Shown here: positions 1,990 through 5,957 of the stretch, piece by piece
Layout: every line of letters starts with the position of its first letter
How positions within the stretch are numbered: the stretch's first letter is position 1
Notes under the pieces: model-generated
Told to the model about the DNA's origin: nothing
What the model saw: only the letters and a program-made list of their open reading frames with translations
Databases searched by the model: none
Program-made: the position numbers and the translations under genes
Assembly: GCA_009838525.1 (NCBI GenBank)
Contig: VXRJ01000018.1
Span: forward strand, 521,087-585,086
Source: Acidobacteriota bacterium
GTDB taxonomy: Bacteria > Acidobacteriota > Vicinamibacteria > Vicinamibacterales > UBA8438
DNA length: 64,000 nucleotides
Reading direction: 5' to 3'

Positions 1990-2439
1990 TCAAGCCTGTC
2001 GGCGCCGCGCGGCCAGTATGCTGAGGCCGACGCCGACCGCAAGACCCAGGATCGCTCCCGTCAGCAGCATGTTGAAGGACGATTGGGCGACCGCCACGAG
2101 TACGGGATTCGGCTCATCGAAGGGTCCGGTGGCGCCGCGCACGATTACGGTCGAGAAGGGGAGCTGGCCGACCTCCGGCGCGGATGGCCGAAACAGGAAG
2201 CCGAGCAGGGCGCCCACCAGAGTGAGCCCTGCCACGGGGAGACGGGATTCTGTGGACGCCAGCCAGTACAGGCCGAGAATCACTGCCAGCAGGCACAGAA
2301 ACGTGTAGTGGACCGTGCTGTCCGCCTGGAACGTCGCCATCTGGTATGACGGGAATAGCGCGACGACGAAGAACATCATCACGTGCAGCACGCCCAGCAG
2401 GACCCGCTGGAGCAGGTTCGCCGAACTGGAATCAATCAT
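1990..2439 (-). CDS. Small integral membrane protein, unknown
   Basis: A 149-residue protein with about four hydrophobic segments: residues 12-29, 43-60, 68-85 and 118-142. It ends in a basic tail (ARRRQA), which suggests a cytosolic C-terminus. A polar loop at about 88-115 separates the third and fourth segments. It lies upstream of the secreted protein at 902-1909 on the same strand, 80 bp away, but shares no obvious function with it. No family is recognised. Confidence 0.6.
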   Translation of the reverse strand: MIDSSSANLLQRVLLGVLHVMMFFVVALFPSYQMATFQADSTVHYTFLCLLAVILGLYWLASTESRLPVAGLTLVGALLGFLFRPSAPEVGQLPFSTVIVRGATGPFDEPNPVLVAVAQSSFNMLLTGAILGLAVGVGLSILAARRRQA

Positions 2440-2528: not shown

Positions 2529-3095
2529 ATGATCATCGGCCAAACCGGGATGTCGGCGGCGCCCTTCAACCTACCCGGCAGTGACGGGCGGCAACACAGC
2601 CTCCAAGACTACCGGGGTGAATGGCTGTTGCTCGTCATGCATCGCCACCTTCGTTGACTCGCCTGCCGCCGGCACCTGCTGCAGTTGCAGCAGAAGGAAC
2701 ACCTGTTGCGCGAGTTGAGGATCCGTGTCTGCATCGTGACGTTCGAAGGGGAAGCGGCGGCCCGTGCGTACGCGGCAGAAACGGGAACGCCCTGGCCAGT
2801 GCTTTCGGACCGCGACAAGGGACTCTACGAAGCGTACGGCATGGGACGGTTGTCGTGGCGCCAGTTGGCCCAACCGTCCGCGATCGCCCTCTATCTTGGC
2901 GAAATCCTGAAGGGCAAACTTCCGCAGCAGCCGGAGGCCGATCCGCACCAGGCGGGAGGCGACGTCCTCATCGACCCGGCCGGCATCGTCCGACTGGTTC
3001 ACGCCAACAGCGGTTCAGCCGACCGGCCTACGGTTCAGCGCCTTCTGAATGCGCGGCGCGCCGCCGAACCGGCACCGCATCGTGAATCGCCGTGA
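2529..3095 (+). CDS. AhpC/TSA-like (SelL/PRXL2-related) thioredoxin-fold protein, probable selenoprotein with UGA-encoded Sec43
   Basis: Read straight through the single in-frame TGA at 2655-2657, the frame gives 188 residues with a peroxiredoxin-like layout: LPGSDGR and LQDYRGEW in the first 35 residues, then VMHRHLR, the TGA, LACRRHL, and later TGTPWPVLSD, LYEAYGMG and DVLIDPAG. Homologues carry a C-x-x-C motif after HRHL. Here the first Cys position is the TGA and the second is Cys46 (TGC at 2664-2666), giving U-x-x-C. A perfect hairpin lies 18 nt downstream, where bacterial SECIS elements sit. Coding similarity is strong on both sides of the TGA and the frame is unchanged, which argues against decay. 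An ORF caller would report only a truncated TTG-start protein from 2685. Start is ATG 2529 or ATG 2550; neither has a strong ribosome-binding site. Likely role: thiol or peroxide redox chemistry. Alternatives are a nonsense mutation or a sequencing error. Confidence 0.75.
2676..2693 (+). promoter_or_regulatory. Candidate bacterial SECIS hairpin
   Basis: CTGCTG (2676-2681) pairs perfectly with CAGCAG (2688-2693). The loop CAGTTG can close further by C2682-G2687 and A2683-T2686. The stem starts 18 nt after the TGA at 2655-2657, and a loop G lies at 2684, 27 nt downstream. Bacterial SECIS elements are known to lie inside the coding region shortly after the UGA with a G near the start of the apical loop, and this fits. 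Caution: the same bases encode Leu-Leu-Gln-Leu-Gln-Gln, and such codon runs can form palindromes by chance. Confidence 0.55.
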
Positions 3096-3129: not shown

Positions 3130-4365
3130 ATGGAAGTCAACAGGGAGACGCAGGACAAACCCGTTGCGACGGCGCAGGTGATGGACCATACAGGCGTCGA
3201 TCGCATGGTGTCGTTGCGGAGGCAGTTTCACCGGCGGCCGGAATTGGCGTTCGACGAGATAGAAACCGCGCGCACCATCATGCTGGAACTGGATCGTCTC
3301 GGCATCCCCTACGACTATGGGGGAGCTGGCGGCGGCGTGGTTGGTCGCCTCGTGGGCAGCGGCCCCGGCCGGCGCATCGCACTCCGCGCGGAAATGGACG
3401 CCCTCCCGTGCGAGGAGGAGACCGGACGCCCATTCACCTCCGCCATTCCCGGCCGGATGCACGCTTGCGGACATGATGTCCACATGGCGATGGTGCTCGG
3501 TAGCGCGGCGCGACTCGCCGCCGATCCGCCGCCCGGCGAGGTGGTATTCGTCTTCCAGCCGGCCGAGGAACGGGGAAACGGTGCTCGCATCATGGTGGAG
3601 GCGGGCGCCCTCGACGGCGTAGATGCGATCTTCGCCGGTCACGTCACGACGGAGTATCCGGTCGGTCGCATCATGGTTTCGGAGGGGACCATCACCGCGC
3701 ATTCCGACCGCTTCTGCATCGAGGTGCGCGGTGAGAGTGGCCATGGCGCACGGCCGCACGAGGCGGTGGATGCGGTGTTGGTGACCGGATTGCTAATCAC
3801 GTCAATCCAGTCGCTGGTGTCGCGATACGTCAACCCGGTCTGGCCATCGGTGGTCACGATCGGCCAGGTGCGGGCAGGAACGGCGGCCAACATCATCGCG
3901 GGCTACGCGGCCCTGGACGGGATCATTCGCACCACCCGGCCAGACGTGCGCAGGGAGATCATCGAGGGACTCGAGCGGACCGCGTCGGCATTGGGTGAAC
4001 TGCACCGCGCGCGGATTGACGTGCGGATCGACGAGAGCTGTCCGTCGGTCGTGAACACTCCGGCGGAAACGGCGCTTGCAGTGGATGCGGTAGGAGAGGT
4101 GCTGGGGGAGGACGCGGTAGTGGTCGCGGATCACCCCAGCATGGGTGCGGAGGATTTCTCCTGGTTCCTGACAGACACGCCCGGTTGCTACGTCCGCTTT
4201 GGCGCGCGGTCGGAGACGGGGGAGTACATACCCCTCCACTCACCTAAGTTCGATGTCGACGAACGGGTCCTGGCGGTGGCCGCCAGGTACTACGAAACGG
4301 TCGTGCGTCGCGCCGCTGGCCTATCGTGCGTCACACTTTCAGCAGACGTGGCAGATCTTCCATAA
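3130..4365 (+). CDS. M20-family amidohydrolase (IAA-amino acid / N-acyl amino acid hydrolase type)
   Basis: This 411-residue zinc-dependent amidohydrolase should cleave an N-acyl or amide-linked amino acid in the cytosol; no signal peptide is seen. The family signature is present in order: FHRRPEL near 34, RAEMDALP with metal Asp90, HACGHDVH at 111-118, QPAEER with Glu146/147, AGHVTT with His171, the ESGHGARP lid-domain motif, and MGAEDFSWF near the C-terminus. Length is normal for the family. ATG 3130 is used; Met18 is an alternative. Its last 35 bp overlap the converging ATP-grasp gene. The substrate cannot be told from sequence. Confidence 0.88.
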   Translation: MEVNRETQDKPVATAQVMDHTGVDRMVSLRRQFHRRPELAFDEIETARTIMLELDRLGIPYDYGGAGGGVVGRLVGSGPGRRIALRAEMDALPCEEETGRPFTSAIPGRMHACGHDVHMAMVLGSAARLAADPPPGEVVFVFQPAEERGNGARIMVEAGALDGVDAIFAGHVTTEYPVGRIMVSEGTITAHSDRFCIEVRGESGHGARPHEAVDAVLVTGLLITSIQSLVSRYVNPVWPSVVTIGQVRAGTAANIIAGYAALDGIIRTTRPDVRREIIEGLERTASALGELHRARIDVRIDESCPSVVNTPAETALAVDAVGEVLGEDAVVVADHPSMGAEDFSWFLTDTPGCYVRFGARSETGEYIPLHSPKFDVDERVLAVAARYYETVVRRAAGLSCVTLSADVADLP

Positions 4366-5815
4366 CCGCCGCATCAGCCTGCTCCGGCGTGGCGCCCATG
4401 GCAATCACGTCGAACTTGCCGAACCGGGCCAGCGGTCCCACGTTGTAGAGGATGAAGCGGCCCCTCCGGGTTGACGGGTCGTACAACTCATCCTCCATCA
4501 GTTCCAGCACGTCCCTGAAACATGCTCCCGCCAACCCGGGGAAGGTCACATCCTGCGCCCGGTACGGATCGAAACGCCCCGGCGCGCGCCGGTAGTGCGG
4601 TGCGACGCGTTCCACGAGAGCCATAGGCAGACTGGTGCCGCCCCATCGACCGTTGCATTCGGTGAACCGAACCTGATAGTCACCTTCCGGATCGCCCGTG
4701 ACGAGGTGATCGAACGAACAGCGACCGACGTAGCCCATTTCCTGCAGGGCCAATGCTATCCAGCGCCCAGCCTGCCTGAGCGTGCGGTCTACATCATCCG
4801 GCAGCGTGGACGTCCGGCTGCCGACGAACACCTTCCGGTCGCCTGCGAGGATCTGTTCATAGACTCCTTCGCACGTCACGCCGCTCGCCCGGTTGCCGAT
4901 CCAGAACTGCGTCGACGGCGACACGGTGGCGCTTTCCCACGCGACCGCCAGCACCGTTTCTCCAGGCACCCATTCGGTTCGCACCAGGAACTCCGCAACC
5001 AGCCGTTCGATCTCCTCAGATGGTCGGCCGCGAAGCGTCGAGCTGTCGAACACCTGGTTGCCCATCGCCGACGCGCAGCGCGTCCGCTTCAATCCGACAG
5101 CAGACCAGGTGGTTGACAGCGCCCCGAGATGCCGGGCCAGACCCGTGGCGTCGTTCGCGGGTCGGGTCTCGGGGATCCAGTCGGGGCCGAGCACCGCTTT
5201 CACCACCTCGTTGAAGGTCCCCTTGTCGTTGGCGATCCAGGTGACGGGGGGCGCGGGCCCCAACACCTGCACCGCATTGATGGATGGGGATGTCCGGTGG
5301 AGCGCACGAGCCAGTTCCCAACACGGTTCGATCGACATGTACGGATGGACCACCACGTGCTCGCGTGCGCCAATCAAGGAGACGAGCTGATCGAGGGTGG
5401 ATGCCTCAAGACAGCCGCGCGCAATGGCCAGCTGCTGGCCGGCAGGTGGTTCCACCGGGACACGGGGGTCGTTGGTCAGCCCAAGGCGTGTGGACCAGTA
5501 GGCGTCATAGTCGGGGTCAACCGGCGTCACCGTGACATAGCAGGCGGGCGAGACGCACCGGATGCGTGCCCGGTGCTGGTATTCCTCGACCCCGACGATG
5601 TCGTTCAGGAAAGGAATCGCGGAGAAATCATCCAGGCAGATCAGAAAGCGGTCTTCGCCTTGCGGCGGCCGGAACCGGCGATTCTCATAGGGTTTAACGC
5701 GGCGCGCCAGATCGAGCCCTTCCGCAATCGGTTGGACCGCCTTCCGAACGCACGCGCGGGCGTCCTCGTAGCTTGTCCAGGGAGGCAGGCGCTGGCCGCC
5801 CGCGAGCCTGCTCAC
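4331..5815 (-). CDS. ATP-grasp domain protein (pre-ATP-grasp type), probable carboxylate-amine ligase-like enzyme
   Basis: About 495 residues. The C-terminal half has ATP-grasp features: a GYVGRCSFDHLV beta-segment and the metal/ATP-binding segment FTECNGRWGGTS. The N-terminal half (RFLICLDDF, VHPYMSIEP, ANDKGTFNEV) resembles the pre-ATP-grasp domain found before some of these enzymes. Such proteins join a carboxylate to an amine or alcohol through an acyl phosphate; the substrate here is unknown. The frame stays open into the tRNA at 5883-5957, which cannot be coding, so a GTG start at 5815 (or 5824) is inferred, without a clear ribosome-binding site. It is a lone gene on this strand. Confidence 0.7.
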   Translation of the reverse strand: MSRLAGGQRLPPWTSYEDARACVRKAVQPIAEGLDLARRVKPYENRRFRPPQGEDRFLICLDDFSAIPFLNDIVGVEEYQHRARIRCVSPACYVTVTPVDPDYDAYWSTRLGLTNDPRVPVEPPAGQQLAIARGCLEASTLDQLVSLIGAREHVVVHPYMSIEPCWELARALHRTSPSINAVQVLGPAPPVTWIANDKGTFNEVVKAVLGPDWIPETRPANDATGLARHLGALSTTWSAVGLKRTRCASAMGNQVFDSSTLRGRPSEEIERLVAEFLVRTEWVPGETVLAVAWESATVSPSTQFWIGNRASGVTCEGVYEQILAGDRKVFVGSRTSTLPDDVDRTLRQAGRWIALALQEMGYVGRCSFDHLVTGDPEGDYQVRFTECNGRWGGTSLPMALVERVAPHYRRAPGRFDPYRAQDVTFPGLAGACFRDVLELMEDELYDPSTRRGRFILYNVGPLARFGKFDVIAMGATPEQADAAVMEDLPRLLKV

Positions 5816-5825
5816 GCGTGGCACG

Positions 5826-5842
5826 CCGGCGAAGCACGCCGG
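5826..5842 (-). terminator. Possible hairpin downstream of tRNA-Gly
   Basis: On the minus strand CCGGCG pairs with CGCCGG around a TGCTT loop, about 40 nt downstream of the tRNA 3' end. There is no T-run, so intrinsic termination is uncertain. It overlaps the region where the ATP-grasp gene is thought to begin. Confidence 0.3.
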
Positions 5843-5882
5843 TGTCCCTTGACGCGCGTGCGGTCTGCCGCAGATGAGGAAT

Positions 5883-5957
<75 letters not shown>

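Follow-up and report, generated by a model that had tools for sequence, protein, structure and literature searches.

Prx-like thiol:disulfide oxidoreductases bearing selenocysteine (Sec) in a UxxC or UxxU motif were already recorded in the genome surveys of 2006 and 2008 (PMC1794560, PMC2398784), and they are tabulated as a selenoprotein class in reviews (PMC13188914, PMC9312934). The related selenoprotein SelL (Shchedrina et al. 2007, as cited in PMC2397514), reported from fish, invertebrates and marine bacteria, carries two Sec residues that form a diselenide (PMC2397514, PMC3473315). Here we describe a gene at positions 2529-3095 (forward strand) of the window, by which we mean the whole 64,000-nucleotide stretch of acidobacterial DNA that was analysed. 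Its predicted product has in common with SelL a Prx-like character and a Sec in the redox motif, and differs from it in having U-x-x-C where SelL has two Sec residues.

An in-frame TGA within a conserved redox domain

The frame opens with an ATG at 2529 and closes with a TGA at 3093-3095, giving a product of 188 residues whose sole internal stop is the TGA of codon 43 (2655-2657). The read-through translation around this codon is HRHLR-U-LAC-RRH, in which U is the predicted Sec43 and the TGC at 2664-2666 encodes its partner residue, Cys46. The first-pass annotation had proposed that a conventional ORF call would truncate this gene, that the two sides of the TGA form one continuous protein, and that the TGA falls at the first Cys of a C-x-x-C motif, and all three proposals hold. 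Gene calling under table 11 returned merely a 136-residue fragment beginning at TTG 2685. The read-through product is matched by NF040769 SelL_rel_redox (NCBIfam) over residues 10-174 with 144.3 bits (curated cut-off 120), by PF00578 AhpC-TSA with 60.7 bits (cut-off 26) and by PF13911 AhpC-TSA_2 with 46 bits (cut-off 27). Since these matches span both sides of the TGA, the codon falls within one domain and corresponds to the first residue of the family's C-x-x-C motif, where distant homologues have Cys or Sec. Standard calling would truncate or miss the gene, and reading through the TGA corrects the gene model.

A search of 100 related genomes recovered 22 further homologues covering the site, each of which was oriented before reading. 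All 22 close homologues carry TGA at the equivalent of codon 43 and none carries Cys; their context is HRHL[RFG]-U-LPC-R, or HRHL[RFG]-U-L[AP]C across all 23 clade members. Cys46 is present in 23 of 23, is replaced by Sec in three distant homologues, and occupies a column that is invariant across the alignment once Sec is read as Cys. The standard code does stop the frame at the TGA, as it would if the gene were decayed or the TGA a sequencing error, with a true stop followed by a relic. The occurrence of the same TGA at the same codon in 22 homologues from other genomes, a conservation that extends across genera, is, however, neither chance nor sequencing error, and the true stop in relatives with loss of downstream similarity that the first-pass annotation had named as counter-evidence was not what we found: protein identity to the homologues, about 48-60%, continues past the TGA. 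Furthermore, in comparisons of the window gene with nine homologues, third codon positions differ more often than first and second positions on either side of the TGA, and this third-position excess indicates that the downstream part is under protein-level selection. We therefore reject a pseudogene or sequencing error, a reading to which we assign next to no probability. The frame is almost certainly a selenoprotein gene whose TGA would be decoded as Sec within a redox active site.

Beyond these relatives, a scan of genome contigs, in a set that may leave out near relatives, returned a single, distant relative with the TGA, located in a Deltaproteobacteria MAG, and a search for plasmid relatives returned none. 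In the window, a divergently oriented gene for a hydrophobic membrane protein with no Pfam match lies upstream (1990-2439, reverse strand) and is conserved at this place in four relatives belonging to a single genus, and an M20 peptidase gene lies downstream (3130-4365, forward strand). An operon with the peptidase is unsupported, as the M20 gene adjoins the selenoprotein gene in convergent orientation in the four relatives, inverted with respect to the window, while the divergent membrane protein gene is kept. Rfam models matched the window at one place only, a tRNA gene at 5886-5957 (reverse strand), which overlaps the start of a 534-residue frame (4331-5935) listed from GTG; given this overlap, the true start of that frame is probably further in.

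A predicted SECIS hairpin and the genes for Sec machinery

The published model for bacterial SECIS elements specifies a loop of 3-9 nt with G in its first two positions, a stem of 4-16 bp, a spacing of 16-37 nt from the UGA and an MFE of at most -7.5 (PMC13188914). A predicted hairpin at 2676-2693 (forward strand) agrees with this model in all four of the published constraints, having a 7-bp stem (2676-2682 with 2687-2693), a four-nucleotide AGUU loop (2683-2686) located 25 nt past the UGA, and a folding energy of -12.6 kcal/mol. Folding of the full 54-nt region from the window sequence alone is unexceptional (z -0.8), and the evidence for the hairpin is accordingly comparative. In the alignment, columns 21-28 pair with columns 33-40 around the AGUU loop, and the inner six pairs are present in all 23 genes. 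On 22 distinct sequences 96% of the paired cells are pairable, against at most 73% in slid versions of the pairing, and the number of cells altered on both sides is seven, compared with 2.3 in shuffles, a value that none of 500 shuffles attained for the real count of seven; this covariation is confined to two base pairs and constitutes a moderate signal. Codon usage adds to the comparison: Leu at +10 is TTG in 23 of 23 genes, where TTG makes up 40 of 443 Leu codons (9%) elsewhere in the same genes, and Gln at +9 is likewise invariably CAG (23/23). This invariance is a synonymous constraint and, on the evidence of these sequences, marks a putative SECIS-like element under selection. The clade adds a well-supported group of selenoproteins with a clearly conserved predicted SECIS downstream of the TGA.

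The source genome, which is 96.85% complete, encodes each component of the Sec machinery for which the first-pass annotation had recommended a search: SelA (540.7 bits), SelD (308.5 bits), SelB above its cut-off, and a tRNA-Sec with anticodon TCA above the Rfam cut-off. Matches resembling tRNA under that cut-off, which control genomes show too, were left out of the count. These findings bear on whether UGA might insert some other amino acid, through near-cognate suppression or a reassigned code. The identity of an inserted residue is not readable from sequence alone, which leaves such a reading some room, but the gene itself terminates in TGA, distant homologues have Cys at position 43, and a SECIS-like hairpin under selection occurs together with the genes for Sec machinery. 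We regard non-Sec read-through as highly improbable.

We are thus confident that the gene is best explained as encoding a Prx-fold, SelL-related oxidoreductase in which UGA 43 would be translated as Sec by the host's own SelA, SelB, SelD and tRNA-Sec, insertion being directed by the hairpin whose loop lies downstream of the codon. An AlphaFold2 model built from 33 sequences (mean pLDDT 87.6) has a Prx/Trx-like fold, with a helix at residues 44-55 directly after residue 43. By analogy with thioredoxin-fold enzymes, the selenolate of Sec43, at the N-terminus of this first active-site helix, would attack a disulfide or peroxide substrate; Cys46 would then resolve the intermediate by forming a Sec43-Cys46 selenenylsulfide, and a reductant resembling thioredoxin may reduce this bond.

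Whether the selenoprotein acts on peroxides, as a peroxiredoxin-type peroxidase, or as a thiol-disulfide oxidoreductase is a matter on which the structural and motif evidence point in different directions. Foldseek matches in the PDB comprise Bcp/AhpE peroxiredoxins (the best), ResA and human prostamide/PGF synthase, a sequence search of the PDB gave weak ResA and Bcp matches only, and the top structural matches and the PF00578 domain both favour a peroxidase. The T-x-x-C/U peroxidatic signature of classical peroxiredoxins is, however, absent from the product, which has HRHLR-U-LAC in its place, and the U-x-x-C motif is thioredoxin/TlpA-like. A peroxidase is a serious but unlikely alternative, and the best reading is that of a genuine U-x-x-C selenoprotein, a probable Prx-like, SelL-related thiol oxidoreductase. 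The motif U-L-A-C, with TGC at 2664-2666, also differs from the U-x-x-U (two Sec residues) of SelL proper, and we class the gene as SelL-related and not as a SelL sensu stricto.

Motif diversity across the phylum

A member of the family was found in 60 of the 396 genomes of the phylum surveyed, with more than half of the members classed by their count of stops alone and the rest read residue by residue. Among the latter, U-x-x-C is found in most; U-x-x-U, with two TGA codons as in SelL proper, occurs in three distant members (L061, L064 and L072), and C-x-x-C occupies the same columns in six (L066, L068, L073, L074, L076 and L077). The first-pass annotation had presented U-x-x-C as a mixed, unusual form of an unannotated selenoprotein. 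The selenoprotein and its motif are supported, but U-x-x-C is the usual state here and belongs to an already tabulated class; similarly, "unannotated" applies at most to this single gene copy, because an NCBIfam model for the family exists.

Distribution of selA was compared in 59 genomes, the window's own being left out, of which 20 have only stop-free forms and 39 have a TGA-containing form. selA is missing from 10 of the former and from one of the latter (Fisher p = 2.6e-5, which overstates independence, since a single genus, g92, supplies eight of the ten selA-less genomes with stop-free forms), and the association is partly phylogenetic. The sole genome with a TGA-bearing member but no selA match (L081; G197:C83:3583-4071) is 91% complete in 750 contigs, and the absence is possibly an assembly gap.

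The presence of U-x-x-C, U-x-x-U and C-x-x-C at one site makes this a convenient family for comparing Sec and Cys chemistry. A more speculative proposal, which we consider doubtful, is that this bacterial family retains its SelL-related enzyme solely in the U-x-x-C form, with other lineages of the phylum using U-x-x-U or C-x-x-C. If this were true, the group would form a natural series for testing the contribution of each Sec, and a specific, undiscovered substrate might forbid reversion to Cys.

Other AhpC/TSA-like frames in the source genome are likewise interrupted by a single in-frame TGA (L022, L023 and L024 at G000:C32:68024, C19:88926 and C33:16606, and a frame at G000:C35:156628), three of which have the motif W-U-P-Y-C. 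These are probably additional U-x-x-C selenoproteins, and such candidates suggest a redox-rich selenoproteome.

Relation to described selenoproteins and Cys-containing relatives

Comparison with known systems places the gene close to what has been described. NF040769 matches the product at near full length across the TGA and above its cut-off, with nothing that excludes membership, and relative to this model the window gene's clade is distinguished by being uniformly U-x-x-C. The bacterial Prx-like UxxC/UxxU selenoproteins are likened to it by description, through the PF00578 domain, Sec as the first residue of U-x-x-C and a SECIS just downstream. Human prostamide/PGF synthase (PDB 9usa, PRXL2-type; AhpC-TSA_2, PF13911) has a similar fold and a Cys44/Cys47 pair, the structure being that of a C44S/C47S mutant and thus implying a C-x-x-C pair in the human protein; it has Cys instead of Sec and shares 18% identity with the window product. 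The selenoprotein alters no general picture, and its novelty is modest: the gene is a sound new example of a family, and of a kind of selenoprotein, that have both already been described.
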